64,000 nt of DNA from contig CAIIXF020000004.1 of NCBI GenBank assembly GCA_903813345.2, positions 31,003,986-31,067,985 on the forward strand. The letters run 5' to 3'. Made by a program: the position numbers and the translations under genes. This stretch comes from Owenia fusiformis (Eukaryota > Annelida > Polychaeta > Sabellida > Oweniidae). This document shows positions 4,859-59,400 of this stretch, one piece after another. Position 1 is the stretch's first letter. Every line of letters begins with the position of its first letter. A model generated the notes under the pieces. It searched no databases. It was not told the DNA's origin and worked only from the letters and a program-made list of their open reading frames with translations.

Positions 4859-4966
4859 TTAAGAACTGTACTAGCGTAGAGTCCTGCAGAATTGAAGAAC
4901 CATGTGACGAAAATTGTACATTATCTGATATTGGAAATGGAGACATTGGATTCGACGGCGACGGGT
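4859..4966 (+). CDS. Gene 1 exon: degenerate EGF-like module
   Basis: The acceptor is tatgttttag and the donor is GGGT|GTAAGT. Length is 108 bp, phase 1 to phase 1. It encodes VKNCTSVESCRIEEPCDENC then TLSDIGNGDIGFDGDG, with the last cysteine of the module supplied by the next exon (F-C after splicing). Four cysteines in this exon are fewer than a standard EGF, so the fold may be altered. Two N-glycosylation sequons are visible (NCT twice). It is nearly identical to the gene 2 exon at 50158-50268, which supports real coding status for both: differences are few and no indel breaks frame. Confidence is high as an exon, moderate for the EGF label. Confidence 0.85.
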
Positions 4967-5429
4967 GTAAGTACTAAGTAAAAAGTCTGAAATCAAAGTT
5001 TGTTACATTTCGAAACTTAAACACTGAAATAATTTCAAGAAGCAACGTTTTAAATAGGGGAAACTTGTGAAAACTAGAAGAACGCTGCCAATGAAAAATA
5101 TTATTCTGACATTTGATATAAAATTTGACTTAAAAAATTGCAAGTTGATCTCAAATTATAAATTCTAATCACTAATTCGTACAACATATTTAAGAACAAT
5201 GACACGCTGAAATTTAGAGATCCATAACAATACTACATTCTTCTTAATTTTAGACGAAAATAATTATTTGTAGTTTTCAATTTTAGGATATGTTAATAAT
5301 AGGGTCGTATTTTTGATCGATTTTGTAAATATCAACCTTTTCCTCTTAAAAGGATCACATCTTATTAATACATTATTGAGCTTTTAATGAATTGTATAGT
5401 AGTGTTCTCGTTATCATTAATATTGCGTT

Positions 5430-6826
5430 TATTTCAGTTTGCTTGGGAACCACAGCTGTTTGCAAAGGTTGTCACCACAATGCACTTCGAATGACATTGA
5501 TATCATATTCATAGTGTTTTATTTCAGTTTGCTTGAGAACCACGGCTATTTGCAAAAGTTGTCACCACAATGCACTTCGAATGACATTGATATTATATTC
5601 TTAGTGTTTTATTTCAGTTTGCTTGAGAACCACGGCTATTTGCAAAAGTTGTCACCACAATGCACTTCGAATGACATTGATATCATATTCATAGTGTTTT
5701 ATTTCAGTTTGCTTGGGAATCACAGCTGTTTGCAAAGGTTGTCACCACAATGCACTTCGAATGACATTGATATTATATTCATAGTGTTTTATTTCAGTTT
5801 GCTTGAGAACCACGGCTATTTGCAAAAGTTGTCACCACAATGCACTTCGAATGACATTGATATCATATTCATAGTGTTTTATTTCAGTTTGCTTGGGAAC
5901 CACAGCTGTTTGCAAAAGTTGTCATCACAATACACTTCGAATGACATTGATATTATATTCATAGTATTTTATTTCAGTTTGCTTGGGAACCACAGCTGTT
6001 TGCAAAAGTTGTCACCACAATACACTTCGAATGACATTGATATTATATTCATAGTATTTTATTTCAGTTTGCTTGGGAACCACAGCTGTTTGCAAAAGTT
6101 GTCACCACAATACACTTCGAATGACATTGATATTATATTCATAGTATTTTATTTCAGTTTGCTTGGGAATCACAGCTGTTTGCAAAGGTTGTCACCACAA
6201 TGCACTTCGAATGACATTGATATTATATTCATAGTGTTTTATTTCAGTTTGCTTGAGAACCACGGCTATTTGCAAAAGTTGTCACCACAATGCACTTCGA
6301 ATGACATTGATATCATATTCATAGTGTTTTATTTCAGTTTGCTTGGGAATCACAGCTGTTTGCAAAGGTTGTCACCACAATGCACTTCGAATGACATTGA
6401 TATTATATTCATAGTGTTTTATTTCAGTTTGCTTGAGAACCACGGCTATTTGCAAAAGTTGTCACCACAATGCACTTCGAATGACATTGATATCATATTC
6501 ATAGTGTTTTATTTCAGTTTGCTTGGGAACCACAGCTGTTTGCAAAGGTTGTCACCACAATGCACTTCGAATGACATTGATATTATATTCATAGTATTTT
6601 ATTTCAGTTTGCTTGGGAACCACAGCTGTTTGCAAAAGTTGTCACCACAATACACTTCGAATGACATTGATATTATATTCATAGTATTTTATTTCAGTTT
6701 GCTTGGGAATCACAGCTGTTTTGCAAAAGTTGTCACCACAATGCACTTCGAATGACATTGATATTATATTCTTAGTGTTTTATTTCAGTTTGCTTGGGAA
6801 TAACAGCTATTTGCAAAAGTTGTCAC
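5430..6826 (+). repeat. 90-bp tandem array (about 15.5 units) copying the acceptor and start of the 9424 exon
   Basis: Each unit reads ttttatttcag then tttgcttgggaaccacagct and about 60 more bases. The part after cag aligns with the first 60 bases of the exon at 9424 (tttgcttgg, gg-atttgc-aaagttgtca, caatgca). Two alternating subtypes occur (gagaaccacggctat and gggaaccacagctgt), implying dimer-wise duplication. In the exon's phase the units translate VCLGTTAVCKGCHHNALRM then reach a stop before the next unit, so use of an upstream acceptor would truncate the protein. The 438-residue open frame at 5439-6755 is in another phase and is a by-product of a unit length divisible by three. Confidence 0.9.
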
Positions 6827-6838
6827 CAGCGGCAGCAT

Positions 6839-8770
6839 TATTCTTATATACGTAACAATTTGTCTAATTTTAGACACGATGGATCGTCATTTTGGAAATA
6901 TTTAAATGAGACTTTTCCAAAAAAGAAATCGATGAATACTTTTGCATCTGTGTTACTGGAAAATAATGAAGTTTCAACAGATAAGAATGTTATATTGGAA
7001 AAGTGGAAACAAGATTTTGAAACAGTTTACAAGAAAGATGATAATGATAAAATTGAAGTAGATAATATTAACGCGTTGTTTGAGCTTGACGAAAATAAGC
7101 ATATAGCAAAAGAGAATATTCAAGAAGACGAGTTGTTAAACAGTACCATTACTCTAGAAGAGGTTGGGTATGCCATATCGAAATTGAAAAATAAGAAAAG
7201 TACTGGTATGGATAATATTCCAAATGAGATACTGAAACTACCATCGCTGAAAATGTTATTGTATAAACTTTTTAATGTTTGTTTTACAAACAACATTATT
7301 CCAGATGTTTGGTTATATTCTATCATTCATCCTATATTAAAAAAAGGAAAGGACAGTAAAGTTCCATTAAATTATAGAGCAATATGCTTATTATCAACTG
7401 TTGCTAAAGCATTTACATCTATTTTAAATAGCCGAATAGTGAGGTTTCTTAATGAGCACAAGATACTTTGTATAGAGCAAAATGGATTCAGAAAGTTTCG
7501 TTCATGCATAGAACATATTTTTACATTAACGACTGTGGCTAGAATACGAAAATATTTTAATATGGATACTTATTTCTGTTTCGTCGACTTCAAATGTGCA
7601 TTTGATTCTGTAAATAGGGATCTATTGTTTCATAAAATGAAGATGAAAGGTATAAACGGAAAAATGTTAGATATTATAATGACCCTGTATTCAAATGTAA
7701 AAGGTTGCATTAAACTAAATGACATAGAAACTGATTGGTTTGAGATGGAAAAGGGTATAAGACAAGGTGATAGCGTTTCATCGACCCTATTTTCTATCTA
7801 TATCGATGATTTAAGTGAAAGTATTAACAACCTAAAATGTGGTGTACACATGGGTAATGAAGGCATGTTAAGCTTGTTAATGTATGCAGATGATGTTGTT
7901 TTGATATCGAGTAGTAAAGATGGTTTGCAAAAACAGATAGATACATTATATCGTTGGTCAAATACTTGGAAGTTGAAAATTAATACTGATAAAACCAAGG
8001 TGATGGTGGTATCAACAAAGAAATATGAAAACTTTGAAAGTTTAGAGTTCAAATATGGTAAATCTTCACTTGATGTAACAGATAAATATCACTATCTTGG
8101 TATAGATATTACATATAACTTAGATTTTTCCTTAACTGCTGAAAAAGTAAGTTATTCTGGAAGTAAAGCGCTTGGAGCTATGAGGTCAAAGTACCTACAA
8201 TTGAAAGGTTTACACTTTGATATTTACACAAAATTATATCACAGCACAGTCGCATCGGTAATGGATTATGCATCTGGAATCTGGGGTCTGCATAGAAAAA
8301 CTCATAGTTTTACCAATAAAGTACAGTTTAATGCCATAAGGACCTTCTTGGGTGTCGGTAAAAAATGCCCTATCAGCTTTTTAGAAGGCGAGTGTGGATG
8401 GACCCCAAATTATATAAGACATTATATAGAAGGTATTCGATTATTGTATAGATTAGTTGTTAATTGTGAAGAAGCCAATATGGCAAAGAAAGCATTTAGA
8501 TGGGATTTAAGTTTAGCCAAATTGAAATGTGATTTTACCTGGAACGAAGAAATCCAGAGCATATGTAAAAGTGTTGACATGCTGAATATGTATGATGATA
8601 TTAAAAAATGTAAAGATTTTAAAAAATTTGTGAATCAAATGAAAGGAAAATTAATGAAATTACATGAAACTCAATGGTTGGAGACAATTAGGGAAAAAAG
8701 AAAATTGACTTTTTATAAGAGCTTTAAATTATCTTTTCAAAGGTCTGAATATTTATTTTGTAATTTTTGA
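6839..8770 (+). CDS. LINE reverse transcriptase ORF (partial)
   Basis: The frame is open from the start of the LINE to a stop at 8768-8770, about 640 residues. It starts in the linker before the RT domain (FWKYLNETFPKKK). RT motifs are in order: LNYRAICLLSTVAKAFTSIL; motif A FVDFKCAFD with its Asp at 7586; motif B GIRQGDSVSSTLFSIYIDDL; motif C YADD at 7883-7894; then the thumb region. The conserved Pro of NYRPI is Ala here. After SEYLFCNF the frame ends, while the next part of the protein continues in another frame from 8767, so a single frameshift separates the two pieces and the copy is probably inactive. The upstream extension into the 90-bp array is not part of the ORF. Confidence 0.88.
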   Translation, partial: YSYIRNNLSNFRHDGSSFWKYLNETFPKKKSMNTFASVLLENNEVSTDKNVILEKWKQDFETVYKKDDNDKIEVDNINALFELDENKHIAKENIQEDELLNSTITLEEVGYAISKLKNKKSTGMDNIPNEILKLPSLKMLLYKLFNVCFTNNIIPDVWLYSIIHPILKKGKDSKVPLNYRAICLLSTVAKAFTSILNSRIVRFLNEHKILCIEQNGFRKFRSCIEHIFTLTTVARIRKYFNMDTYFCFVDFKCAFDSVNRDLLFHKMKMKGINGKMLDIIMTLYSNVKGCIKLNDIETDWFEMEKGIRQGDSVSSTLFSIYIDDLSESINNLKCGVHMGNEGMLSLLMYADDVVLISSSKDGLQKQIDTLYRWSNTWKLKINTDKTKVMVVSTKKYENFESLEFKYGKSSLDVTDKYHYLGIDITYNLDFSLTAEKVSYSGSKALGAMRSKYLQLKGLHFDIYTKLYHSTVASVMDYASGIWGLHRKTHSFTNKVQFNAIRTFLGVGKKCPISFLEGECGWTPNYIRHYIEGIRLLYRLVVNCEEANMAKKAFRWDLSLAKLKCDFTWNEEIQSICKSVDMLNMYDDIKKCKDFKKFVNQMKGKLMKLHETQWLETIREKRKLTFYKSFKLSFQRSEYLFCNF

Positions 8771-9102
8771 ATAGAAAACAAAGATCTGTTTTAGCTAAAT
8801 TTCGATCTGGCACTTTACCTTTAGAGATTGAAACGGGTAGGTGGCAGAATATACCAAGTCAAGAGAGATATTGTAGGCAATGTAAGAATGAAATAGGTGA
8901 TGAGTTTCATTTTTTATTCAAGTGTAAAGTTAATCATAAATTAAGAGAGGAAATGTTTTGTAAAGTAAAAGGTATATATGATCTATTTGAGTCTTGTGAT
9001 AATGAAAAGAAAACAATGTACTTATTGAATTCTAAATCACTCTGTAAATATGTTTCAAATTTTTTGCTTTTGTCTTTGGAGGCTAAAAATAGATTAAAGT
9101 AA
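8767..9102 (+). pseudogene. LINE C-terminal Cys/His segment in a shifted frame
   Basis: This frame encodes SVLAKFRSGTLPLEIETGRW, followed by a zinc-finger-like CRQC...HFLFKC pattern (C-x2-C-x8-H-x4-C) at about 8872-8932, and ends at 9102. The same LAKFR...R.C..C....DE.HFL..C order occurs in the LINE remnant at 57035. It is the natural C-terminus of the RT ORF, displaced by one frameshift near 8762. Confidence 0.8.
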
Positions 9103-9195
9103 GTGTTAATTCTGACTTATCTGCTTATAATATGATTGTAATTGTGTCTCATAAGCCTTTGGAGGCTGGCCGTATAATTACGGGTGACACTGTAA

Positions 9196-9226
<31 letters not shown>

Positions 9227-9230
9227 ATAT

Positions 9231-9420
9231 ACACTTCGAAAGACGTCGATTAAGTCAATTCAAACATAAAAACAGTTATATTATATCCATAGTGTTTTAT
9301 TTCAGTTTGCTTGAGAATCACAGCTATTTGCAAATGTTGTCACCACAATGCACTTCGAAGGACATCGAATTCGTCAATTAAAACATCAAAAAGATAAATT
9401 ATATTTATAGTGTTTTATTT
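9231..9420 (+). repeat. Two longer (about 128 bp) units of the acceptor-derived repeat
   Basis: After the LINE the repeat resumes with units that keep an extra 35-40 bases (gtcaattcaaacataaaaac) missing from the 90-bp units. They match the ~128-bp units before the 52685 exon of gene 2 (51836-52340) in layout. I infer that the 128-bp form is ancestral and the 90-bp form an amplified deletion derivative. Confidence 0.75.
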
Positions 9421-9423
9421 CAG

Positions 9424-9561
9424 TTTGCTTGGAAAAGAAAACCGAGGATTGCGGCATTTGCGAAAGTTGTCAACAAAATGCAACGTGTACGCCTCTGAAG
9501 TTGGAGCAATTTGTTTGTTATGCTGCCTGTATTTCCGACCAAGGAAATGAGGGAGATGGAC
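9424..9561 (+). CDS. Gene 1 exon: EGF-like cysteine-rich module
   Basis: The acceptor is gttttatttcag and the donor is GATGGAC|GTAAGA. Length is 138 bp, phase 1 to phase 1. It encodes CLEKKTEDCGICESCQQNAT, then CTPLKLEQFVCYAACISDQG and NEGDG, with the closing cysteine in the next exon (P-C-Q). The ending GxEGDG matches the gene 2 exon at 52685, where it reads GFEGDG, the usual end of an EGF module before its last cysteine. It has eight cysteines and one sequon (NAT). It is the source of the 90-bp array upstream. The remaining 228-bp intron to the next exon is short and ordinary. Confidence 0.85.
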
Positions 9562-9789: not shown

Positions 9790-10146
9790 CTTGCCAACCT
9801 ATAACTACCACTCCTACAGAAGCTCCTACCACAACAATCATGGAAAGTGCTACAACAACAGAAGCTGTTGAAATCACGGATAATGCTACAACCACAGATG
9901 CTGCTACAACTACAGACGCCGCTACTGCCTCGGGGGGTTCTGGAACCACAGACGCCGCTACTGCCACGGGGGGATCTGTAACCACAGACGCCGCTACTAG
10001 CACAGGGGGATCTGTAACCACAGACGCCGCTACAACAACGGGATCTGTTAATACAACGGGATCGGGAGCTAGCAACAGCACACAGTTAGCAGAAGGCTCT
10101 ATAGTTACCACTACAAATGGATTGCTCCCCCTACCAGGTGGTTCTG
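9790..10146 (+). CDS. Gene 1 exon: Thr/Ser-rich mucin-like stalk
   Basis: The acceptor is gatgtacattgcag and the donor is GGTTCTG|GTGAGT. Length is 357 bp, phase 1 to phase 1. It begins with the cysteine that closes the preceding EGF-like module, then runs as PITTTPTEAPTTTIMESATT and on through TTDAAT and GGSVTT repeats, ending GLLPLPGGSG. Composition (Thr, Ala, Ser, Gly, a few acidic residues) suggests heavy O-glycosylation; sequons NAT, NTT and NST are present. The last 30 or so residues match the end of the gene 2 stalk exon at 55724-56416, including LPLPGGSG/FPLPGGSG. The minus-strand ORF over this exon is a shadow of the repeat. Confidence 0.88.
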
Positions 10147-13100
10147 GTGAGTCAGTTTTATAATAGGCGCAACATGTGAATCCTAGGGCACGTAACGAAT
10201 TCAGTCATGTCTGTTTTATAATAGAACCCACGTTTATATCTTCGGGCATGCAACGAGTTCATGCAAGTGAGTTTTATAATAAGCCCAACATTTGAATCAG
10301 AGGTTGCAACGAGTTCATGCAAGTGAGTTTTATAATAAGCCCAACATTTGAATCAGAGGTTGCAACGAGTTCAGGAAAGTAAGTTTTATAATAAGCCCAA
10401 CATTTGAATCAGAGGTTGCAACGAGTTCATGCAAGTGAGTTTTATAATAAGCCCAACATTTGAATCAGAGTTTGTAACGAGTTCATGCAAGTGAGTTTTA
10501 TAACAAGCCCAACATTTGAATCAGAGGTTGCAACGAGTTCATGCAAGTGAGTTTTATAATAAGCCCAACATTTGAATCAGAGGTTGCAACGAGTTCATGC
10601 AAGTGAGTTTTATAATAAGCCCAACATTTGAATCAGAGGTTGCAACGAGTTCATGCAAGTGAGTTTTATAATAAGCCCAACATTTGAATCAGAGGTTGCA
10701 ACGAGTTCATGCAAGTGAGTTTTATAATAAGCCCAACATTTGAATCAGAGGTTGCAACGAGTTCATGCAAGTGAGTTTTATAATAAGCCCAACATTTGAA
10801 TCAGAGGTTGCAACGAGTTCATGCAAGTGAGTTTTATAATAAGCCCAACATTTGAATCAGAGGTTGCAACGAGTTCATGCAAGTGAGTTTTATAATAAGC
10901 CCAACATTTGAATCAGAGGTTGCAACGAGTTCAGGAAAGTAAGTTTTATAATAAGCCCAACATTTGAATCAGAGGTTGCAACGAGTTCATGCAAGTGAGT
11001 TTTATAACAAGCCCAACATTTGAATCAGAGGTTGCAACGAGTTCATGCAAGTGAGTTTTATAATAAGCCCAACATTTGAATCAGAGGTTGCAACGAGTTC
11101 ATGCAAGTGAGTTTTATAATAAGCCCAACATTTGAATCAGAGGTTGCAACGAGTTCATGCAAGTGAGTTTTATAACAAGCCCAACATTTGAATCAGAGGT
11201 TGCAACGAGTTCATGCAAGTGAGTTTTATAATAAGCCCAACATTTGAATCACAGGTTGCAACGAGTTCATGCAAGTGAGTTTTATAATAAGCCCAACATT
11301 TGAATCGGAGGTTGCAACGAGTTCATGCAAGTGAGTTTTATAATAAGCCCAACATTTGAATCACAGGTTGCAACGAGTTCATGCAAGTGAGTTTTATAAC
11401 AAGCCCAACATTTGAATCAGAGGTTGCAACGAGTTCATGAAAGTGAGTTTTATAATAAGCCCAACATTTGAATCAGAGGTTGCAACGAGTTCATGCAAGT
11501 GAGTTTTATAACAAGCCCAACATTTGAATCAGAGGTTGCAACGAGTTCATGCAAGTGAGTTTTATAATAAGCCCAACATTTGAATCGGAGGTTGCAACGA
11601 GTTCATGCAAGTGAGTTTTATAATAAGCCCAACATTTGAATCAGAGGTTGCAACGAGTTCATGCAAGTGAGTTTTATAATAAGCCCAACATTTGAATCAG
11701 AGGTTGCAACGAGTTCATGCAAGTGAGCTTTACAATAAGCCCAACATTTGAATCAGAGGTTGCAACGAGTTCATGCAAGTGAGTTTTATAACAAGCCCAA
11801 CATTTGAATCAGAGGTTGCAACGAGTTCATGCAAGTGAGTTTTATAACAAGCCCAACATTTGAATCAGAGGTTGCAACGAGTTCATGCAAGTGAGTTTTA
11901 TAATAAGCCCAACATTTGAATCGGAGGTTGCAACGAGTTCATGCAAGTGAGCTTTACAATAAGCCCAACATTTGAATCAGAGGTTGCAACGAGTTCATGC
12001 AAGTGAGTTTTATAACAAGCCCAACATTTGAATCAGAGGTTGCAACGAGTTCATGCAAGTGAGTTTTATAATAAACCCAACATTTGAATCAGAGGTTGCA
12101 ACGAGTTCATGAAAGTGAGTTTTATAATAAGCCCAGCATTTGAATCAGAGGTTGCAACGAGTTCATGCAAGTGAGTTTTATAATAAGCCCAACATTTGAA
12201 TCAGAGGTTGCAACGAGTTCATGCAAGTGAGTTTTATAATAAGCCCAACATTTGAATCAGAGGTTGCAACGAGTTCATGCAAGTGAGTTTTATAATAAGC
12301 CCAACATTTGAATCAGAGGTTGCAACGAGTTCATGCAAGTGAGTTTTATAATAAGCCCAACATTTGATTCAGAGGTTGCAACGAGTTCATGCAAGTGAGT
12401 TTTATAATAAGCCCAACATTTGAATCAGAGGTTGCAACGAGTTCATGCAAGTGAGTTTTATAATAAGCCCAACATTTGAATCAGAGGTTGCAACAAGTTC
12501 ATGCAAGTGAGTTTTATAATAAGCCCAACATTTGAATCAGAGGTTGCAACGAGTTCATGCAAGTGAGTTTTATAACAAGCCCAACATTTGAATCAGAGTT
12601 TGTAACGAGTTCATGCAAGTGAGTTTTATAATAAGCCCAACATTTGAATCAGAGGTTGCAACGAGTTCATGCAAGTGAGTTTTATAATAAGCCCAACATT
12701 TGAATCAGAGGTTGCAACGAGTTCATGCAAGTGAGTTTTATAATAAGCCCAACATTTGAATCAGAGTTTGTAACGAGTTCATGCAAGTGAGTTTTATAAT
12801 AAGCCCAACATTTGAATCAGAGGTTGCAACGAGTTCATGAAAGTGAGTTTTATAATAAGCCCAACATTTGAATCAGAGGTTGCAACGAGTTCATGCAAGT
12901 GAGTTTTATAACAAGCCCAACATTTGAATCACAGGTTGCAACGAGTTCATGCAAGTGAGTTTTATAATAAGCCCAACATTTGATTCAGAGGTTGCAACGA
13001 GTTCATGCAAGTGAGTTTTATAATAAGCCCAACATTTGAATCAGAGGTTGCAACGAGTTCATGCAAGTGAGTTTTATAATAAGCCCAACATTTGAATCAG

Positions 13101-16100
13101 AGGTTGCAACGAGTTCATGCAAGTGAGTTTTATAATAAGCCCAACATTTGAATCAGAGGTTGCAACGAGTTCATGCAAGTGAGTTTTATAATAAGCCCAA
13201 CATTTGAATCAGAGGTTGCAACGAGTTCATGCAAGTGAGTTTTATAATAAGCCCAACATTTGAATCAGAGGTTGCAACGAGTTCATGCAAGTGAGTTTTA
13301 TAATAAGCCCAACATTTGAATCAGAGGTTGCAACGAGTTCATGCAAGTGAGTTTTATAATAAGCCCAACATTTGAATCAGAGGTTGCAACGAGTTCATGC
13401 AAGTGAGTTTTATAATAAGCCCAACATTTGAATCAGAGGTTGCAACGAGTTCATGCAAGTGAGTTTTATAACAAGCCCAACATTTGAATCAGAGTTTGTA
13501 ACGAGTTCATGCAAGTGAAGTTTATAATAAACCCAACATTTGAATCAGAGGTTGCAACGAGTTCATGCAAGTGAGTTTTATAATAAGCCCAACATTTGAA
13601 TCAGAGGTTGCAACGAGTTCATGCAAGTGAGTTTTATAATAAGCCAAACATTTGAATCAGAGGTTGCAACGAGTTCATGCAAGTGAGTTTTATAACAAGC
13701 CCAACATTTGAATCAGAGGTTGCAACGAGTTCATGCAAGTGAGTTTTATAATAAGCCCAACATTTGAATCACAGGTTGCAACGAGTTCATGCAAGTGAGT
13801 TTTATAATAAGCCCAACATTTGAATCGGAGGTTGCAACGAGTTCATGCAAGTGAGTTTTATAATAAGCCCAACATTTGAATCACAGGTTGCAACGAGTTC
13901 ATGCAAGTGAGTTTTATAACAAGCCCAACATTTGAATCAGAGGTTGCAACGAGTTCATGAAAGTGAGTTTTATAATAAGCCCAACATTTGAATCAGAGGT
14001 TGCAACGAGTTCATGCAAGTGAGTTTTATAACAAGCCCAACATTTGAATCAGAGGTTGCAACGAGTTCATGCAAGTGAGTTTTATAATAAGCCCAACATT
14101 TGAATCGGAGGTTGCAACGAGTTCATGCAAGTGAGTTTTATAATAAGCCCAACATTTGAATCAGAGGTTGCAACGAGTTCATGCAAGTGAGTTTTATAAT
14201 AAGCCCAACATTTGAATCAGAGGTTGCAACGAGTTCATGCAAGTGAGCTTTACAATAAGCCCAACATTTGAATCAGAGGTTGCAACGAGTTCATGCAAGT
14301 GAGTTTTATAACAAGCCCAACATTTGAATCAGAGGTTGCAACGAGTTCATGCAAGTGAGTTTTATAACAAGCCCAACATTTGAATCAGAGGTTGCAACGA
14401 GTTCATGCAAGTGAGTTTTATAATAAGCCCAACATTTGAATCGGAGGTTGCAACGAGTTCATGCAAGTGAGCTTTACAATAAGCCCAACATTTGAATCAG
14501 AGGTTGCAACGAGTTCATGCAAGTGAGTTTTATAACAAGCCCAACATTTGAATCAGAGGTTGCAACGAGTTCATGCAAGTGAGTTTTATAATAAGCCCAA
14601 CATTTGAATCAGAGGTTGCAACGAGTTCATGAAAGTGAGTTTTATAATAAGCCCAGCATTTGAATCAGAGGTTGCAACGAGTTCATGCAAGTGAGTTTTA
14701 TAATAAGCCCAACATTTGAATCAGAGGTTGCAACGAGTTCATGCAAGTGAGTTTTATAATAAGCCCAACATTTGAATCAGAGGTTGCAACGAGTTCATGC
14801 AAGTGAGTTTTATAATAAGCCCAACATTTGAATCAGAGGTTGCAACGAGTTCATGCAAGTGAGTTTTATAATAAGCCCAACATTTGATTCAGAGGTTGCA
14901 ACGAGTTCATGCAAGTGAGTTTTATAATAAGCCCAACATTTGAATCAGAGGTTGCAACGAGTTCATGCAAGTGAGTTTTATAATAAGCCCAACATTTGAA
15001 TCAGAGGTTGCAACGAGTTCATGCAAGTGAGTTTTATAATAAGCCCAACATTTGAATCAGAGGTTGCAACGAGTTCATGCAAGTGAGTTTTATAACAAGC
15101 CCAACATTTGAATCAGAGTTTGTAACGAGTTCATGCAAGTGAGTTTTATAATAAGCCCAACATTTGAATCAGAGGTTGCAACGAGTTCATGCAAGTGAGT
15201 TTTATAATAAGCCCAACATTTGAATCAGAGGTTGCAACGAGTTCATGCAAGTGAGTTTTATAATAAGCCCAACATTTGAATCAGAGTTTGTAACGAGTTC
15301 ATGCAAGTGAGTTTTATAATAAGCCCAACATTTGAATCAGAGGTTGCAACGAGTTCATGAAAGTGAGTTTTATAATAAGCCCAACATTTGAATCAGAGGT
15401 TGCAACGAGTTCATGCAAGTGAGTTTTATAACAAGCCCAACATTTGAATCACAGGTTGCAACGAGTTCATGCAAGTGAGTTTTATAATAAGCCCAACATT
15501 TGATTCAGAGGTTGCAACGAGTTCATGCAAGTGAGTTTTATAATAAGCCCAACATTTGAATCAGAGGTTGCAACGAGTTCATGCAAGTGAGTTTTATAAT
15601 AAGCCCAACATTTGAATCAGAGGTTGCAACGAGTTCATGCAAGTGAGTTTTATAATAAGCCCAACATTTGAATCAGAGGTTGCAACGAGTTCATGCAAGT
15701 GAGTTTTATAATAAGCCCAACATTTGAATCAGAGGTTGCAACGAGTTCATGCAAGTGAGTTTTATAATAAGCCCAACATTTGAATCAGAGGTTGCAACGA
15801 GTTCATGCAAGTGAGTTTTATAATAAGCCCAACATTTGAATCACAGGTTGCAACGAGTTCATGCAAGTGAGTTTTATAATAAGCCCAACATTTGAATCGG
15901 AGGTTGCAACGAGTTCATGCAAGTGAGTTTTATAATAAGCCCAACATTTGAATCACAGGTTGCAACGAGTTCATGCAAGTGAGTTTTATAACAAGCCCAA
16001 CATTTGAATCAGAGGTTGCAACGAGTTCATGAAAGTGAGTTTTATAATAAGCCCAACATTTGAATCAGAGGTTGCAACGAGTTCATGCAAGTGAGTTTTA

Positions 16101-48723: not shown

Positions 48724-48750
48724 GTGAGTAGTATAAACTTCAAGCTTATA

Positions 48751-50110: not shown

Positions 50111-50157
50111 ATAATAACTCGCACAGTGTGTTAAGAATGGGGTGTTTTATGTTTTAG

Positions 50158-50268: not shown

Positions 50269-50336
50269 GTACGTATAAAAAAAAGTTAAAATCAAAGCAT
50301 GTTATATTTTGAAAGGATGAGTGTCTTTAAGACCCT

Positions 50337-50720
50337 TTATAACATACCTATGATGACGTATAGTGTAAACTGTTCACAAGACAGCGGGCCAATATAACTT
50401 TTGAAAAGCCCGCGCCCGCTAACTTTCTGGTTGGTCAAGCGCTGGGACTACGTCATACATTAGGCCTAGGTCAAATTGATCGTACATTCGTAAGATACAA
50501 ACATGGGAATAAATCATCATTTCCGAACCATTGCTAGTCAATAAGATAAGAAAACGGTACGTTCTGACCAGATTAGATCATCATAGGTATGTTATAAATC
50601 GTTTATGTCACTATAGTTGCATATATGCCCTCGGTTCTCAGTGATCAATGTCCCTCCCAAGGTCGGGCCATATATCACTGAAACCCTCGGGCATATATGC
50701 AACGATAGTGACATAACCTT
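50337..50720 (+). mobile_element. Hairpin-ended asymmetric-TIR element, copy E3 (about 384 bp)
   Basis: Left end TTATAACATACCTATGATGA is inverted at 50577-50597 (tcatcataggtatgttataa). The hairpin 50600-50718 has arms tatgtcactatagttgcata and tatgcaacgatagtgacata with gccctcgg / aaccctcgggc in the stem. The interior holds GGTTGGTCAAG, TACGTCA and GCGGGC/GCCCGC pairs, the same kinds of modules as in E1 and E2. The left end resembles that of E1 (ACATACCTC). It lies 68 bp after the donor of the 50158 exon. Confidence 0.75.
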
Positions 50721-50922
50721 TAAATATTAGCCTCCAAGAAAAAGTAAAAAGTACGATACCAAAGCACGTCACATTTTGTAAATAAAAACTAGGACAAGCA
50801 AAATAAAATATTATAAGAAGGAATATTTCAGAACAACACCTATCTGATTTTGATCTCAAATCTGACATTGTCAAATTTGGCAATTTGACTTATGTCTGCT
50901 AGATTATGAATTCTAACAACTA

Positions 50923-51285
50923 CACAGGAAGATATGCCGATTACTCAATAAATACAAAATGAGTACTAAATTAGCACTCTGTCAAAAGTGCACTCATAAG
51001 CACTCATGCCATGAGTGCTAATTTAGTACTAATTCATGATAAGAGTACTCATCTTGTGCTGAAAAATCAATTTTATTAGTACTATTTTATCACTCATGAT
51101 ATGAGTACCAATTTAAAGCTAGAAAATCAATAAAATTACTGCTATTTTATCACTCATAATATACTCATACTCATTTAGTACTAAAACCTGCAACAAATCA
51201 GTACCCATGTCATAAGTGTTCAATTTACTCAATTAGCGCTAATATGGCATGAATCCTATTTTAGTACTTGGCATATCTCCCTGTG
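50923..51285. mobile_element. 363-bp MITE, TA flanked, interior of tgagtac repeats
   Basis: Ends CACAGGAAGATATGCCGA and TTGGCATATCTCCCTGTG are inverted with one or two mismatches and flanked by TA. The interior consists of repeated atgagtactaa / actcatgatatgagt motifs that fold back on each other. Confidence 0.75.
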
Positions 51286-51575
51286 TAATTCGTTTAACAT
51301 GATTGAAGACATACTGAAATGTATAGAACCTTCAAATGAATATGTCCTCTAAATGTCAGACGAAAATGATTATTCGTAGTCCCCAAATTTAAGAAATAGA
51401 ATCTGAGATCTACTACTACTCTCTTAAGGACACTTGAGAAGCGTGTGTGGGGGGGGATATATAAGAGCAAATGCCATAGGGACAGAAATGTCAGTTGTGC
51501 TTCCTCTGGTGTGTTCGATCGTTAACATCAGCTGCCTCTAGTCAGATCGACTGACAAAACAACCTTTTTGGGGTT

Positions 51576-51655
51576 GTCGAGTTGGCCGAGAGGGCTTGAG
51601 CGCCGGCACGTTCGAGCTAGGCGATTGGGCGCCGTAACCACGAGGTTGCGAGTTG
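51576..51655 (+). other. tRNA-like sequence, probable SINE head or tRNA pseudogene
   Basis: GTTGTCGAGTTGGCCGAGAG followed by ggcttgagcgcc resembles the D arm and A box (TGGCCGAGAGG) of Leu/Ser tRNAs, and gaggttgcgagttg about 50 bases on resembles a B box. The 3' strand that would close the acceptor stem is missing, so it is not a working tRNA. I infer a tRNA-derived SINE promoter region; its tail is not clear. Confidence 0.5.
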
Positions 51656-51835
51656 TGTTTATTCATTTCTATCGTGTAAAATGACAGCCTTTTCTTTCTT
51701 AAATGAAATGTTTAGAAAATAATGCATCGAAGTTTTTAATGTAATGTATATTTCGAATATGTCAATCTGAAATATTGATTTCAAATAGTCCCTTATCTAA
51801 AAAGAAACTTTGAAAAAAGCATTCTTGGCCTAGTT

Positions 51836-52340
51836 TGATTTGAAAAACCATGGTCAATTGAAAAGGTTGTACCGCACTATACTTCAAAGGTCAACTAAAA
51901 GTCAATTAATACATATGAGCCATTGAGAAATCGCCCTATGTCATTTCTTTTGTGTTAATTTCAATTTGTTTGAAAACCATGGTGAATTGAAAAGGTTGTA
52001 CCGCACTACACTTCGAAGGTAAGATTAAAAGTCAATTAATACATTTAAGCAATTGAGAAATTGCCCTTTGTCAATTTATTGTGCTTATTTCCATTTGCTT
52101 GAAAACCATTGGGTATTGCAAAGGTTGTCGCCACATAATACACTTCGAAGATCAATTGAAAGCCAATTAATACATATAAGCCATTGAGAAATCGCCCTTT
52201 GTCATTTTATTGTGCTTATTTCCATTTGCTTGAAAACCATTGGGTATTGCAAAGGTTGTCGCCACATAATACACTTCGAAGATCATTGAAAGCCAATTAA
52301 TGCATATAAGCCATTGAGAAATCGCCCTTTGTCATTTTAT
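51836..52340 (+). repeat. Four ~125-bp units copying the acceptor and start of the EGF exon (gene 2 version)
   Basis: Units contain tttccatttgcttgaaaacc, attgcaaaggttgtcgccac and acacttcgaagatcaattga. The blocks tttgcttg, caaaggttgtc and cacttcga are shared with the 90-bp and 128-bp units of gene 1 in the equivalent intron. The acceptor cag has decayed to ccat in most units. This array therefore predates the gene duplication but expanded only in gene 1. Confidence 0.8.
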
Positions 52341-52343
52341 TGT

Positions 52344-52671
52344 ATTATTACCACCTTGCCGTGCCAGTTCTTGGGGTTTTAGTGCTAGTTTAGAAGGCAT
52401 TCATTTTACTATATCGACCTGAGAAATGTGTAACGTCATAGTGATGGTCCATATGGACCGGTCTAGAATATATTCTGGACCGGCAAATTTCCCCCGGGAA
52501 ATTAAATATCGTTCAGTGCGATTTTCTTGCTATTTCAGCCCTGGTCGTTAACGGTGGTAATAATACTAATAACGTCATTTCTGCGAGCAATATAGTGAAA
52601 TGTTGGACCTTGGGCCTTCGGCCCTCGGTCCAATATTTCACTATATTGCCCTTAGAAATGACGTTATTGTA
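52344..52671 (+). mobile_element. Hairpin-ended asymmetric-TIR element, copy E4 (about 328 bp)
   Basis: Left end ATTATTACCACCTT is inverted at 52552-52564 (ggtggtaataat). The hairpin 52569-52668 has arms aataacgtcatttct and agaaatgacgttatt with gcaatatagtgaaat and GGACCTTGGGCC / GGCCCTCGGTCC inside. TTATTGTA is present at both outer boundaries. It is inserted at the end of the last unit of the preceding array; its right end is only 13 bases before the functional acceptor at 52683-52684. Confidence 0.78.
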
Positions 52672-52684
52672 CTATTCATTTCAG

Positions 52685-52867
52685 TTTGCCTTCCGATCAT
52701 GGAGGTGTGTAATCCTATCCTGTATCCCTGCCATGGAGACGCAACATGTGTTGTAGCATTACAGTTATCAGAACCTCCATCTGAGAAAGTGAAACGGAAA
52801 AAGAGGAGTGAAGATGAAATCGGTTATGCTGTGTGTCAGTGCGACCCAGGATTCGAAGGAGATGGTC
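52685..52867 (+). CDS. Gene 2 exon: EGF-like domain with basic (furin-like) insert
   Basis: The acceptor is actattcatttcag and the donor GATGGTC|GTAAGT. Length is 183 bp, phase 1 to phase 1. It encodes VCLPIMEVCNPILYPCHGDA, TCVVALQLSEPPSEK, the basic run VKRKKRSEDEIGYAV and CQCDPGFEGDG; the closing Cys comes from the next exon (Q-T-C). EGF spacing is normal except that the loop between the third and fourth Cys is enlarged to about 28 residues and contains RKKRS, a match to the furin consensus R-x-K/R-R. The gene 1 counterpart (9424) has no such insert. Cleavage there would leave two disulfide-linked chains. Confidence 0.88.
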
Positions 52868-53460
52868 GTAAGTTGATATTTATTATTTTGTTACGGGTGG
52901 GCATATACAATGGGCCGTACCTTGATATTACATTGCTCCATTTTCCTTCGTTCAAACCCTTTCAAATGTAAGAAAATGGCATGAAATTAAATGAAGCTGT
53001 GCTGTTGAAAAGATTCGGGAAGTAAAGGACCAAAAACTGTTAAATCAAAGAAATCCAATGAACTGGATCAGAACTGGACAAGTCAACATATAATTATTAG
53101 AATGGATGAAGCATTGAACAGAATAGAATATATATACGCTGCAGAAGCGTTCATGATACGTTTTCAATGGAGAGTGTGAAGAAAATTAGACATGCAATAG
53201 ACATGCAAATAGCGTTTATGGCAAATGAAAGTGGGACATTCTCGCATTCTTGTTTAGCGTCTGCTGGAAAAATTGTCTTAAGACGATTCTTGACTCAATC
53301 AGTTCATGGAAAGAATGTTTTCGCACCATCTACCGAGAATATGGACACTTAACTTATCACCTTTTCAAGTGTAACAAGGAAGGCCATCCCTTCGATATGT
53401 CCGGAACCTGCATTTTTGGTTTAGTTGATATCAAATGTGAATTGAAATTGAATGCATTTT
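52868..53460. other. Gene 2 intron start, no repeat
   Basis: The sequence is ordinary AT-rich intron; short ORFs at 53167-53462 show no coding features and are not bounded by splice sites. Confidence 0.5.
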
Positions 53461-55620
53461 GAATGCATGATACTAAGACCCGTTAAGCTCTGGCCAAGTG
53501 CCGTGAGTGAAGTTGGTATTTGCTGACGTATGCATTAGGGCTTTTGATATTGAACACATTCGCTCATCATTTTGGATGATATTTAGACCCGTTAGTGTCA
53601 TCCTGATGTGGCAAAGTGCCGTAAGTGAAATTGGTATCTGCTGACGTATACATTAGGGCTATTGATATTGAACACATTCGCTCATCATTTTGGATGATAT
53701 TTAGACCCGTTAGTGTCATCCTGATGTGGCAAAGTGCCGTAAGTGAAATTGGTATTTGCTGACGTATGCATTAGGGCTTTTGATATTGAACACATTCGCT
53801 CATCATTTTGGATGATATTTAGACCCGTTAGTGTCATCCTGATGTGGCAAAGTGCCGTAAGTGAAATTGGTATCTGCTGACGTATGCATTAGGGCTATTG
53901 ATATTGAACACATTCGCTCATCATTTTGGATGATATTTAGACCCGTTAGTGTCATCCTGATGTGGCAAAGTGCCGTAAGTGAAATTGGTATCTGCTGACG
54001 TATGCATTAGGGCTATTGATATTGAACACATTCGCTCATCATTTTGGATGATATTTAGACCCGTTAGTGTCATCCTGATGTGGCAAAGTGCCGTAAGTGA
54101 AATTGGTATCTGCTGACGTATGCATTAGGGCTATTGATATTGAACACATTCGCTCATCATTTTGGATGATATTAAGACCTGTTAGTGTCATCCTGCTGTG
54201 GCAAAGTGCCGTAAGTGAAATTGGTATCTGCTGACGTATGCATTAGGGCTATTGATATTGAACACATTCGCTCATCATTTTGGATGATATTAAGACCTGT
54301 TAGTGTCATCCTGCTGTGGCCAAGTGCCGTAAGTGAAGGTTTTACATACTGACGTATGCATTATTCCATTTATTGACATGAATTTCAGATATATAGACAC
54401 CCGATTATAAAAATGATTCCATTTGATATGAATTTCAGATATGTGGACACCCGATTGGGTAGAATGATTCCATTTGATATTATGAATTTCAGATATATAG
54501 ACACCCGATTGTAAAAAAATGATTCCAGTTGATATGAATTTCAGATATATGGACACCCGATTATAAGAAATGATTCCAGTTGATATGAATTTCAGATATA
54601 TGGACACCCGATTATGTAAAATGATTCCAGTTGATATGAATTTCAGATATATAGACACCTGATTTGTAAAATGATTCCATTTGAAGATTTCCATCCTGAT
54701 GTGGCAAAGTGCCGTAAGTGAAATTGGTATCTGCTGACGTATGCATTGGGGCTATTGATATTGAACACATTCACTCATCATTTTGGATGATATTTAGACC
54801 TGCTAGTGTCATCCTGATGTGGCAAAGTGCCGTAAGTGAAATTGGTATCTGCTGACGTATGCATTAGGGCTATTGATATTGAACACATTCGCTCATCATT
54901 TTGGATGATATTAAGACCTGTTAGTGTCATCCTGCTGTGGCAAAGTGCCGTAAGTGAAATTGGTATCTGCTGACGTATGCATTAGGGCTATTGATATTGA
55001 ACACATTCGCTCATCATTTTGGATGATATTAAGACCTGTTAGTGTCATCCTGCTGTGGCCAAGTGCCGTAAGTGAAGGTTTTACATACTGACGTATGCAT
55101 TATTCCATTTATTGACATGAATTTCAGATATATAGACACCCGATTATAAAAATGATTCCATTTGATATGAATTTCAGATATGTGGACACAAGATTGGGTA
55201 GAATGATTCCATTTGATATTATGAATTTCAGATATATAGACACCCGATTATAAAAAAATGATTCCAGTTGATATGAATTTCAGATATATGGACACCCGAT
55301 TATAAGAAATGATTCCAGTTGATATGAATTTCAGATATATGGACACCCGATTATGTAAAATGATTCCAGTTGATATGAATTTCAGATATATAGACACCTG
55401 ATTTGTAAAATGATTCCATTTGAAGATTTCCATCCTGATGTGGCAAAGTGCCGTAAGTGAAATTGGTATCTGCTGACGTATGCATTAGGGCTATTGATAT
55501 TGAACACATTCACTCATCATTTTGGATGATATTTAGACCTGTTAGTGTCATCCTGATGTGGCAAAGTGCCGTAAGTGAAATTGTTATCTGCTGAAGTATG
55601 AATTTGGGTTATTGAAATTG
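53461..55620 (+). repeat. 118-bp array with nested ~46-bp acceptor-like units and 739-bp duplication
   Basis: The main unit (about 13 copies) reads gacccgttagtgtcatcctg, atgtggcaaagtgccgtaag, tgaaattggtatctgctgac and further; each holds GCC|GTAAGTGAAATT, a donor-like site. Two inner blocks (54361-54686 and 55106-55426) consist of six units of a 41-50 bp repeat, ttgatatgaatttcag followed by atatatagacacccgatt, whose tgatat-atttcag matches the acceptor of the next exon (tgatatacatttcag). The two blocks lie in copies of a 739-bp higher-order unit. Minus-strand ORFs at 54290-54694 and 55248-55433 are by-products. Confidence 0.9.
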
Positions 55621-55723
55621 AACACATTTTGCATATCCTCTTCAATATTTTCGTCCTGCGGCAAACAAAACACTGTGAATTTACTAGGGATCTCCAACTG
55701 ATTGCATTTGATATACATTTCAG

Positions 55724-56416
55724 AAACCTGCACTGCCACCACTACCACAACCTCAACCACTACCTCCACAACCTCCACTACCACCACAACCTCCACTACC
55801 ACCACAACCTCCACCACAACCTCCACTACAACCACTACTACGGAAGCTCCACCTGATCTCATTGACGATTCTACCACCACCAGCACCACTACTACCACTA
55901 CTACGGAAGCTCCACCTGATCTTATTGACGATTCTACCACCACCAGCACTACTACTACCACTACTACGGAAGCTCCACCTGATCTTATTGACGATTCTAC
56001 CACCACCAGCACCACTACCAGCACTACTACCTCCACTACAACGGAAGCTCCAACCACAACAGAAGCTGCTGATATCATGGACGATTCTACCACCACGAGC
56101 ACTACTACTACCACTACTACGGAAGCTCCAACCACAACAGAAGCTGCTGATATCATTGAAATTGCTACCACCAGCACTTCCACTGATGTCATGGAAAATG
56201 CTACAACAACGGATGTTACTGCAACCACTACAACCACGGAAGGTCCTGCAACCTCAGACGCTGCTACAACAACAGGATATGTTAACGCCACTGGATCTGT
56301 TAACACAACGGGATCTGTTAATACGACGGGATCAGGAGCAAATGATGGTTTTCAGTCTGCAGGGGGGAACATAGTGACCCTCCCTAGTGGATGGTTCCCA
56401 CTCCCAGGTGGTTCAG
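55724..56416 (+). CDS. Gene 2 exon: long Thr-rich mucin-like stalk
   Basis: The acceptor is gatatacatttcag and the donor GGTTCAG|GTAAGC. Length is 693 bp, phase 1 to phase 1. It starts TCTATTTTTSTTTSTTSTTT, supplying the last EGF cysteine, then has three copies of TEAPPDLIDDSTTTSTTTTT, two copies of TEAPTTTEAADIM/I, and a C-terminal part rich in VNTTGS ending GGNIVTLPSGWFPLPGGSG. Over half the residues are Thr or Ser, pointing to dense O-glycosylation; sequons NAT and NTT are at the distal end. It is twice the length of the gene 1 stalk owing to extra Thr repeats. Overlapping ORFs in other frames and on the minus strand are shadows. Confidence 0.9.
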
Positions 56417-56495
56417 GTAAGCTAGTTTTATAATAGGCTAAATATGTAGGCATGTTACGGCTTCAAATAGATGAATTAAGTTTTATAATAGGCTC
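56417..56495 (+). repeat. Two diverged units of the donor repeat (gene 2 counterpart of the 14-kb satellite)
   Basis: The intron begins GTAAGCTAGTTTTATAATAG and about 60 bases later has aattaagttttataataggc. Both match the first bases of the gene 1 intron (gtgagtcagttttataatag) and its 56-bp unit. So the seed repeat existed in the common ancestor; in gene 2 it stayed at two copies while the intron is only 402 bp long. Confidence 0.75.
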
Positions 56496-56818
56496 TAAAT
56501 GCAAAACATAGAAATATATTTGGATTTGCTATTCTCGGACTTCCACATTTTTGATTATCGGTCTCAATTCCCCTTCCAGATTTGAACTGCTTGTACCACT
56601 CATACACTCTAGAGGTTGACATCAGATATGATGAACAATGCCTAGATATTTGTATTAATCTCTCGATTTATAGTTTAAGGACTGTTTGACAGACATTTTA
56701 GTTCCGATCGCGACTTGTTATTACACCTTTGTGCGTGAGATTTGAGGATCTTAAGTTATAATTATATACTGCGCATGTGAGAAAAATAATATTACGATTT
56801 ATGCATGTATGTTTGCAG

Positions 56819-56892
56819 GAGCCAGCTGTACTACCGTTTCTCTGACAATAATGGTTCTGCTGGCATCGATCTCGCAATGGTATAATATCTAA
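56819..56892 (+). CDS. Gene 2 last exon: hydrophobic C-terminus (GPI signal or short anchor)
   Basis: The acceptor is gcatgtatgtttgcag. In phase 1 it encodes GASCTTVSLTIMVLLASISQ then WYNI and TAA at 56890-56892. The preceding stalk ends PLPGGSG, so the junction gives GGSGASC, then a hydrophobic stretch to the end. Compared with gene 1 the hydrophobic run is shorter (about 14 residues) and interrupted by SQW, so GPI processing is less certain here. The bases after the stop continue as 61-bp repeats built from the end of this exon. Confidence 0.8.
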
Positions 56893-57030
56893 CAATTCAT
56901 GTGCTAGACGTCACTGCCTGCGTATATGTGGTCTCACATTGGTATAATATTTAACAATTAATGTACTGGACGTCACTGTCTGCGTATATGTGATTTCGAA
57001 TTGGTAAATATGATCTCACATTGGTAATTT
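56868..57030 (+). repeat. Two to three ~61-bp units starting inside the last exon
   Basis: The block atctcgcaatggtataatat, ctaacaattcatgtgctaga and cgtcactgcctgcgtatatg (exon end, stop and 3' flank) repeats as ctcacattggtataatattt and so on, then degenerates. It is the same unit as the array at 59022-59400, about 2.1 kb downstream. Confidence 0.8.
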
Positions 57031-57034
57031 TAAA

Positions 57035-57296
57035 ATGGCCAGATTTAGATTAGCAAACCATAATTTAAGAATTGAAAGAGAGAGACACGAGAAAGAAAAA
57101 ATATTGCAGAACAGAACCGACTTGAAGCAAAAGAGAGAATTTGCCAAGTTTGCAATAAGGGGAACGTGGAAGATGAAAAGCATTTTCTTCTTTTATGCGA
57201 TGGTTATAAAGATTGCAGATATGATATGATCAAAGTTCTATTGATTCATTTGAAAATATGTCGGATGGAGAAAGTTTTTAATGATTTCAGATTGTA
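57035..57296 (+). mobile_element. LINE 3' fragment (C-terminal Cys/His region)
   Basis: One frame gives MARFRLANHNLRIERERHEK; after a frameshift near 57125 another gives ICQVCNKGNVEDEKHFLLLC, the C-x2-C...H-x4-C motif seen at the end of the LINE at 6828. It is heavily 5' truncated and has no clear poly(A) or simple-repeat tail. It lies in the 3' UTR or flank of gene 2. Confidence 0.7.
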
Positions 57297-57712
57297 ACGG
57301 TTGCTTAATAAGACTTTTTATATTTCAACTTCCAAACAATGCTAACGTCGTGTAAATAGAACAGCATTATAGAAACTTGTTATTGGAACAAAGTATAGAA
57401 TTTAGATTGATATCTGTCGCTGAAAACTAGTAGACTTTAGTCTGCCGTACGAGAGATCTCATTGGTTCAACTTGTTCTGGTAGAGTTGACTTTTATGTGT
57501 GAGTTATACAAGGTTGAGTTCGTCAGTCGAGCAGAGGGCAGGATACGATGAAGACTATACGCCTGTGTCTTTATCACTAGAAGTAGTTTGAGTTCAAAAG
57601 CTTGACGATGAAAAGGTTAAGCTAACGATGTTTTTCACAACGTAACCGTGAACGCAAAGTACAAAAATTAACAAAGGAATGTATCGAGCGCTCATAGTTT
57701 TATGCGCGCTTA

Positions 57713-57852
57713 TGCCTTGGTCACATTTACTCCGATTTTCACTACGGCGCCCGGTCGATTGAGTATTTTGTTCAAAATTGAATACAATTTTGAACAAAAC
57801 ACTCAATCGGGCGGGCGCCGGTCGATGGATCGGAGCAAATGTGACCAAGGTA
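57713..57852. mobile_element. Palindromic MITE, 140 bp
   Basis: It is nearly identical to 25708-25847: TGCCTTGGTCACATTTACTC at the left and gagcaaatgtgaccaaggta at the right, with the aattgaatacaattttgaac foldback in the centre. Confidence 0.88.
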
Positions 57853-59021
57853 TTAGTCTACTTCAGATACTCTTTCAGCTTCAGAGTTTCGGGTTTAGAA
57901 CGGGAGAATTTGAAATTTGACGTTGGGTCAACGGGAACCATTTTACTCGTGTCTATTGAACACTATGCTGTCAATTTTGATTTCGATGCACAGTTGAATT
58001 CTTGCTGAACACGATGATGTATGTCATGCATGATTTAGCGCCAAAAATCTTACGAAACGAGCTCGTTTAAAATATCTATTAGAAAACCAGCTATAAAACC
58101 GCATCAATGACATACTATAGAATCATTACACGCTATGGTGTAGTCTAAACAAACACTGGATTTGAACGGCTATTTATATAAGAAGGCTACATGAATTTGT
58201 ATATGGTCGAGTGATACGTACAGGTTCAGTTTCGATTATATATGCAAAGCTTAACCTCTCCAATGTTAGTTTTGGTACGATAACGGAAGTTAGGGCGTGG
58301 CTTAGCCCTCAGGCACTCCGGGGTTGGATCTCGTTAGTAGCATTTCCATTTTATCTATTACTGTTTGTTGCTTGTTTTATATTACTGTATGCATGTATTT
58401 TTATACGTTGTAAATAAATATTTATGTTGTAAACGGTGTTGATTTTATCCGATTGTTATCCTTGTAAATACCCTGTCCTTTGTTCCTTTTGCCCAGCTAT
58501 ATTTTCAGTACCATCTCAGTGCCTCTTATTACGGTCTCATTACAAGATGATTATGAAATTGTAAACGAATTGATACATTTTATAAATAAACTTTTCAATC
58601 AACGTCGTGAGCTATTTGAAAAAGGAATGAACTAGTTTGTAAGATATATATATTTAAATATTAGTTTAACAATGCATTTTACTGTATAACTGTATCATTA
58701 TGTCTTGTAATTGATTTTGTTAGGAAGTCAATTGTTTTGGCTTGAAACACAATAAAATCTTGAATCTTTGTATAATATGAAACAGTTGTAAAATATAATA
58801 AATAATAAATAACGCCTGAATTTGCTGAAGTGAGGATTTCCCATGTTAAAAAGAAGAGAATTTTCAAGAGGCTTTACATCAGTGGATTAGAGTATACAAA
58901 ATGTAAAATATACAAAACTTAAGGGATGTGTATCTAAACATTATTGGAAAGTATAAAGCCTCAAATCACCATGGTCTGAAAATGGTGATAGAAAATCCGG
59001 GTGTCATTTATTCATGGTGAG
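57853..59021. other. Downstream flank of gene 2, no gene seen
   Basis: This stretch is AT-rich. AATAAA at 58413-58418 and further AATAAA-like runs at 58580-58590 and 58797-58812 could serve as polyadenylation signals. ORFs here are short and random in character. Confidence 0.35.
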
Positions 59022-59400
59022 CACTTTAATGTGCTGGACGTCACTGTCTGCGTATATTTGATCTCGCATTGATATTACTTTAAGAATTGATGTGCTTGGT
59101 GGCACTGTCTGCGTATATTTGATCTCGCATTGATATTACTTTAAGAATTGATGTGCTTGGTGGCACTGTCTGCGTATATTTGATCTCGCATTGATATTAC
59201 TTTAAGAATTGATGTGCTTGGTGGCACTGTCTGCGTATATTTGATCTCACATTGTTACAGAATACAACAATGTCACTGACATCATTGCCAATGTGTATTC
59301 GATCTTGCATTGGTACAAGTATAACACCTTTCAATCAATGTATTGGACACCAGTACCTATACTACGTGCATGTGATCTCGAAACGTTACAACAAATGTAC
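59022..59400 (+). repeat. 61-bp array derived from the gene 2 terminal exon and 3' flank
   Basis: Four near-identical units (period 61; gtctgcgtatatttgatctc at 59046, 59107, 59168 and 59229) plus diverged ones to 59400 match the last-exon block at 56868-57030 (gatctcgca-t-gtata-ta...acgtcactgtctgcgtatat). They may be the remains of a third gene end or a displaced piece of the array at gene 2. Confidence 0.8.

Follow-up and report, generated by a model that had tools for sequence, protein, structure and literature searches.

The closest described counterparts of the repeats analysed here are the 'mirages' of amphioxus, which have been reported from the genes for Adh3, troponin C, the globins BflGb6 and BflGb9, and PGBD5 (PMC3087553, PMC3902484). 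As these reports present them, mirages are tandem repeats over an intron-exon boundary, at the 5' or 3' edge of an exon, and many of their units carry AG or GT. Their interiors are homogenised in a concerted manner, the copies at the boundary are excluded from this process, and splicing is described as regular and undisturbed (PMC3087553, PMC3902484). Here, we analysed a 64,000-nucleotide stretch of DNA (the window) from the annelid Owenia fusiformis (GenBank assembly GCA_903813345.2, contig CAIIXF020000004.1, positions 31,003,986 to 31,067,985 of the forward strand), in which two paralogous genes, A and B, carry extensive tandem arrays. A first-pass annotation had known of no parallel to these arrays among described gene families; the amphioxus mirages, as far as the two reports describe them, show the same pattern (PMC3087553, PMC3902484). 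Several of the arrays of O. fusiformis are real boundary-seeded minisatellites of this known kind, and they stand out by an extreme copy number and by their unusual density in one gene pair. Most probably, they are mirage-type intronic minisatellites that arose through ordinary growth from duplications of exon edges.

Compared with the amphioxus cases, for which the reports give copy numbers of 6 and 3 (BflGb6) and 2–7 (PGBD5), ~247 copies are found here in one 14.6-kb intron (PMC3087553, PMC3902484). Furthermore, several boundaries of one gene pair are affected, and two of the arrays comprise the intron edge only. Other systems share single features with this locus. In intron gain by tandem duplication, as described for the potato RdRp gene, the duplicated segment carries splice signals (PMC4974935), whereas here existing introns grow and no new intron separates the paralogues. 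Minisatellites also differ between recent paralogues in human segmental duplications, some of them at exon-intron boundaries; however, about half of those reported lie in coding exons and the boundary ones form novel introns and alter transcripts, while the present arrays are intronic (PMC2812944). Similarly, large arrays in the first intron of earthworm metallothionein genes differ between tandem paralogues, but a boundary origin of the monomers is not stated in the available part of that report (PMC12783039). Among the matches listed, no title or abstract opening was noticed that reports mirages beyond lancelets, which is no proof of absence.

Both genes lie on the forward strand (A, 4859–24864; B, 48373–56892) and their frames are open across the four and five exons recognised here, respectively. 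All seven introns between these exons are of the GT-AG type, all exons before the last have phase 1-1, and the frame reaches a stop codon. Exons and introns correspond one-to-one between A1–A4 and B1–B4. Exon A1 (4859–4966) shares 75% amino acid identity with B1 (50158–50268). Cysteine-rich A2 (9424–9561) is the paralogue of the EGF-like B2 (52685–52867; EGF_3 E value 0.0014, under the Pfam cut-off). Exons A3 (9790–10146) and B3 (55724–56416) are threonine-rich and mucin-like, B3 with 63-bp coding repeats. The last exons, A4 (24791–24864) and B4 (56819–56892), align with each other and encode a hydrophobic C-terminus followed by the stop codon. Gene B has an additional upstream exon, B0 (48373–48723), which is without a family or PDB match.

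Tandem Repeats Finder (TRF), one of the checks that the first-pass annotation had asked for, recovered the arrays that it had named. These comprise units of 90 bp (15.6 copies, 5428–6828), 56 bp (247 copies, 10249–24101), 42 bp (three blocks, 41599–48394), 131 bp (3.5 copies, 51881–52343), 118 bp together with 51/106 bp (53491–55424), and 61 bp (3.5 copies, 59042–59254). From 57 TRF rows, short, two-copy and coding repeats set aside, we compared 11 units with 18 boundaries (16 splice junctions and two stop codons, each ±50 bp) and expressed every match as a z value, for which each unit was shuffled 200 times at the mononucleotide level. The 90-bp unit matched the A2 acceptor (z = 16.9; B2 acceptor 5.3, A2 donor 4.6, B3 acceptor 3.6), the 42-bp unit the B0 acceptor (z = 13.6), the 56-bp unit the A3 donor (z = 14.9) and the paralogous B3 donor (z = 8.1), and the 51-bp unit the B3 acceptor (z = 7.1; A3 acceptor 3.1). 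The 61-bp unit matched the stop region of B4 (z = 27.9). Every strong unit was specific, among the 18 boundaries, for its own boundary or that of its paralogue. This supports that several arrays grew from exon-edge DNA.

When the two sides of each junction were tested separately, the intron side was represented in each of the 90-, 42-, 56- and 51-bp units (P = 0.001 for each), while exon sequence was found only inside the 90-bp (P = 0.001) and 42-bp units (P = 0.005). The latter two are therefore mirages in the strict sense, i.e., the unit spans the boundary with both sides represented. In the 56-bp (exon side P = 0.41) and 51-bp units (P = 0.997), only the intron side is represented; these are intron-edge arrays, not strict mirages. 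The claim that each array copies the adjacent splice site thus holds for these four units but not for the 118-bp unit, which matches none, or the 131-bp unit, which resembles the A2 acceptor (z = 6.7) more than its own B2 acceptor (z = 1.3). Nor do all arrays span functional junctions, as had been proposed: five of the 11 tested units (27, 32, 134, 125 and 118 bp) had z values of at most 3.3 at all 18 boundaries. The copying of the end of the last exon was confirmed for both the 61-bp and a related 62-bp unit (z = 26.7). Finally, the arrays cannot all be counted as independent, as the 90- and 131-bp units form one paralogous family and a two-copy seed of the 56-bp unit is common to both genes.

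The largest array fills most of the last intron of gene A (10147–24101), with two diverged copies followed by the 247 others. Its source is about the first 56 bp of this intron, and most copies carry a donor-like GTRAGT (exact in 237), with GT kept in 246 of 247. In an ungapped alignment the GTGAGT of the unit is offset from the true A3 donor by 4 nt in the downstream direction and therefore need not be a positional copy of it. The array is strongly homogenised (block means of 0.974–0.990 identity to the consensus; 35 distinct types among 247 copies), and the copy on the A3 side has ~79% identity over 47 bp, as counted on the alignment. The homologous intron of gene B is 402 bp long and contains only the two-copy seed (56417–56525; copy 1 versus copy 2, P = 0.0015), compared with 14,644 bp and ~249 copies in gene A. 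This difference between paralogues is suggestive of copy-number instability. On its own the seed at the B3 donor is unremarkable, its score being matched by 19% of the in-gene random points described below; its position, homologous to that in gene A, is the reason for counting it.

The array upstream of B0 (41599–48372) consists of three blocks of the 42-bp unit, which includes the B0 acceptor and 22 bp of the exon. In 83 of the 85 copies parsed from its main block, the A of the AG is present in 83/83 and the G in 78/83. The last five copies before B0 reach similarity values of 0.88, 0.79, 0.88, 0.76 and 0.62, and 75 of the 80 others at least 0.9. Homogenised interiors and diverged edges are thus found on the exon side of both the 56-bp and the 42-bp arrays, the usual mark of unequal exchange. 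A 1513-bp higher-order repeat within the latter array (41599–44780) mixes the unit with non-array sequence, of which 43077–43267 and 44590–44780 are 72% similar to 2880–3040.

The 90-bp array (5428–6828) contains ~15 copies of the A2 acceptor with ~59 bp of exon 2, aligns to 9411–9482, and retains the AG in 15/15 copies; further edge copies of the family adjoin A2 (9232–9423). Between them lies a forward-strand reverse-transcriptase element, seemingly of the non-LTR (non-long terminal repeat) type (6829–9230; RVT_1 E value 9.5e-33; AATA tail at 9194–9229), which separates the 15 main copies from those on the A2 side, is probably 5'-truncated and has a frame break near 8768. In gene B, the paralogous 131-bp array (51830–52343) has lost the acceptor AG at all three sites, to AA once and to CA twice. 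In mirages many, though not all, units keep AG or GT, and the same holds here, with retention in the 56-, 42- and 90-bp units and loss in the 131-bp unit. The intron part of the 131-bp unit alone does not match the intron before A2 significantly (P = 0.096), so the homology of the two arrays is supported by the longer alignment and by the exon-like part of the unit. Given this homology and the shared 56-bp seed, the seeds would predate the separation of A and B, unless gene conversion spread them, and growth would have followed later in one gene.

Upstream of B3, the 51-bp array (54373–55424) copies the intron edge of the acceptor up to the AG. The match is short (score 38, versus 34 for the second-best place in the window). 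It is interleaved with the 118-bp array (53491–55570), for which no boundary origin was found among the 18 tested; a derivation from the B2 donor was considered and rejected (z = 1.8 and 0.0; exon side alone P = 0.021, uncorrected). The two units alternate in a 739-bp higher-order repeat (53491–55570), and the 118-bp unit carries GTAAGT in 13 copies. At the end of gene B, the 62-bp array (56868–57011) runs across the stop codon into the start of the 3' flank and its family continues ~2 kb downstream as the 61-bp array (59042–59254). The intervening ~2 kb (57012–59041) may include the remnant of a reverse-transcriptase C-terminus near 57080–57290, as judged by eye. In gene A, the signal for a tandem duplication of the A4 stop region is marginal only (P = 0.054; z = 3.9 for the 61-bp unit). 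Duplications of exon 1 were observed as well: a decayed tandem copy of B1, acceptor included, lies upstream of this exon (49985–50129; z = 22.5), and a decayed copy of the exon part of A1 lies upstream of A1 (4730–4858; z = 9.7). No copy of the A1 acceptor was found within 1.5 kb (score 25).

Are exon edges duplicated more often than other DNA? We searched for copies of ±40 bp around each of the 16 splice junctions within 1.5 kb and compared the scores with those of 1500 random points (390 of them in genes), arrays and exon surroundings excluded. The scores of the A2 acceptor (72), A3 donor (56), B0 acceptor (83) and B1 acceptor (45) were equalled or exceeded by 1.6%, 3.0%, 1.2% and 4.9% of the random points, respectively. 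The B3 acceptor scored 46 solely through the coding repeats of its own exon, and the remaining 11 junctions scored 19–34. Scores of at least 45 at 4 of 16 junctions compare with 6.2% of the in-gene points (binomial P = 0.015) and 4.9% of all points (P = 0.0065). Five of nine boundary types, namely acceptors 0, 1, 2 and 3 and donor 3, have a local flank copy in at least one gene. This share, and an intron in which a unit carrying a donor recurs ~247 times, are what make the locus unusual; for donors 0, 1 and 2 and acceptor 4 no local flank copy was found in either gene. We also simulated the random placement of six array units in array-collapsed genes, with assumed flanks of 3 kb before and 1 kb after the genes. 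The loose count of four out of six units at junctions was rarely reached (P = 0.0006–0.0011), while the strict count, which demands exon sequence in the unit, was two out of six (P = 0.048–0.066).

These figures would fit a mutational process that acts preferentially at the exon-intron boundaries of this genome, where it breaks or copies DNA. Exon edges would then be mutational hot spots, at which a boundary-linked process (e.g., co-transcriptional breakage or R-loop-associated repair) seeds duplications repeatedly, and the gene family would record at least five such events, some of which pre-date the separation of the genes. A preferential amplification of splice-site DNA, as raised by the first-pass annotation, is accordingly possible. 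However, the excess over random points is modest, and the case, a single gene pair, was picked because it looked striking. Moreover, the purging of wholly exonic duplications and the easy recognition of exon-like sequence would both bias what is seen towards boundaries. We thus regard such a process as unlikely, albeit the least unlikely of the alternatives. An origin as common intronic satellites that have nothing to do with exon edges, with a likeness due to chance or shared splice consensus, is the least credible. It would account for the lack of a boundary match for the 118-bp unit, for four tested arrays that lie outside the genes and, at its own exon, for the 131-bp unit, and for the short intron edge matched by the 51-bp unit. 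Yet the z values of 13.6–27.9 for the 42-, 56-, 90- and 61-bp units, each on one boundary type of 18, refute it for these four arrays; it stands for the 118-bp array.

The arrays might also be functional, with decoy sites serving as alternative exon edges that would add 14-amino acid repeats to B0 or, through read-through at A3 and B3, yield forms lacking the C-terminus. The notion that decoys stay in frame applies to one place only. An in-phase, stop-free extension was found for 13 of 373 decoys, all of them 42-bp copies nearest to B0 (13/107), and for none of the 90-bp (0/17) or 51-bp (0/12) acceptor decoys. None of the 237 A3 donor decoys can be used in frame, all being located beyond a stop codon that lies in frame 14 nt inside the intron, and two sites in the 131-bp array (ending in CA, not AG), two B3 donor decoys and 13 B2 donor decoys failed as well. 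As multiplied exons need both edges, we paired 51-bp acceptors with 118-bp donors, the only place where both alternate; 0 of 24 pairs form an in-phase open exon. In strength, most of the A3 decoy donors equal the real site: 224 of the 237 match the U1 consensus at seven of nine positions, as does the A3 donor itself. Read-through of the last introns (10147–10163 and 56417–56433) also ends alike, after GESVL in A3 and GKLVL in B3, and intron retention there would drop the hydrophobic C-terminus in both paralogues.

Selection on the decoys, as had been envisaged, left no clear trace. Relative to the rest of the units, neither conservation nor avoidance of the splice motifs is clear: 45% of two-base windows in the 56-bp unit are as invariant as its GT or more so, 19%, 56% and 14% of windows in the three 42-bp blocks are as low in variability as TTTGCAG or lower, and the corresponding figure for TTATTTCAG in the 90-bp unit is 28%. 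In the main-block copies that are exactly 42 bp long and carry no more than eight differences, variants comprise 5 synonymous, 17 nonsynonymous and 3 stop changes, compared with 4.2, 19.4 and 1.4 expected. Stops are thus not avoided, and a coding role of the 42-bp array was rejected on this pattern, which shows no coding constraint. With almost no possible in-frame use, a function of the arrays in splicing appears improbable, and the repeats seem to be harmless side products of array growth, not a working device.

Growth from exon-edge duplications would proceed as follows. Chance would create short tandem duplications that cover or adjoin an exon edge, in several cases before A and B separated. 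One copy of the boundary would remain joined to the exon body and keep working; therefore, surplus acceptor copies would end up upstream and surplus donor copies downstream of the exon, in either case inside an intron, where they would cost little. Unequal recombination or slippage may then enlarge and homogenise some of the seeds, up to ~247 copies, leaving the exon-side copies diverged. We infer that splicing takes place at the copy attached to the exon, and that the arrays are presumably neutral and grew by recombination.

Several observations weigh against mirage-type growth. Use of the exon-attached copy is only inferred, the seed in gene B is short, and gene conversion could mimic shared seeds. 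At the far edge of the 56-bp array the copies are not diverged except for the last (0.88), and the 42-bp array has no gradient of junction similarity along its length (Spearman 0.00, P = 1.0). The 118-bp array is without a source among the 18 boundaries (all |z| < 2), and chance placement is an incomplete account of boundary copies that are somewhat commoner than at random points. In addition, TTTGCAG belongs to the less variable stretches of the 42-bp unit in two blocks (19% and 14%), the 13 in-phase open decoys nearest B0 leave a coding role possible there, and a 42-bp open reading frame has a sub-threshold match to Galaxin_repeat (E value 0.0018; 18.7 bits versus a cut-off of 28).

If the arrays are neutral, the gene pair is a clear case of intron growth, in which exon-edge duplications hidden by splicing reached 14 kb in one paralogue and two copies in the other. 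The decoy donors that equal A3 in their U1 match furthermore provide a natural test of splice-site choice. If exon edges were mutational hot spots, the more than 200 decoy donors of equal strength in the intron of gene A would be a natural probe of the way in which the spliceosome settles on the site attached to the exon. Should mirage-type arrays prove widespread beyond lancelets, minisatellites that start at exon boundaries would be one general way by which introns grow.

Concerning the gene products, searches of Pfam, NCBIfam and PDB yielded sub-threshold EGF matches for gene B only, whereas gene A and exon B0 had no usable match. A single-sequence fold of B0 had a mean predicted local distance difference test score of 36.2, and tblastn (E value 0.01) found no counterpart of this exon elsewhere in the window. 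The hydrophobic C-terminus of both proteins is taken here to be glycosylphosphatidylinositol (GPI)-anchor-like. The sequence KVKRKKRSEDE, encoded by B2, the longer exon of the A2/B2 pair, looks like a furin-type cleavage site.

The window has a GC content of 35%, below the ~41% of Branchiostoma, and a scan of it returned no tRNA and no Rfam family at gathering score. Among viral contigs, the reverse transcriptase had no relative and a pattern of the 56-bp unit had 0 matches. A self-BLAST of the window had 120 of 222 rows among the matches listed. Between the genes, a 27-bp array of ~1.9 kb (27277–29180) is partly open on both strands and has no boundary match. Finally, palindromic elements resembling miniature inverted-repeat transposable elements were noted by eye and by motif search at 25710–25845 and about 57715–57851, with the ends CCTTGGTCACATTT / AAATGTGACCAAGG.

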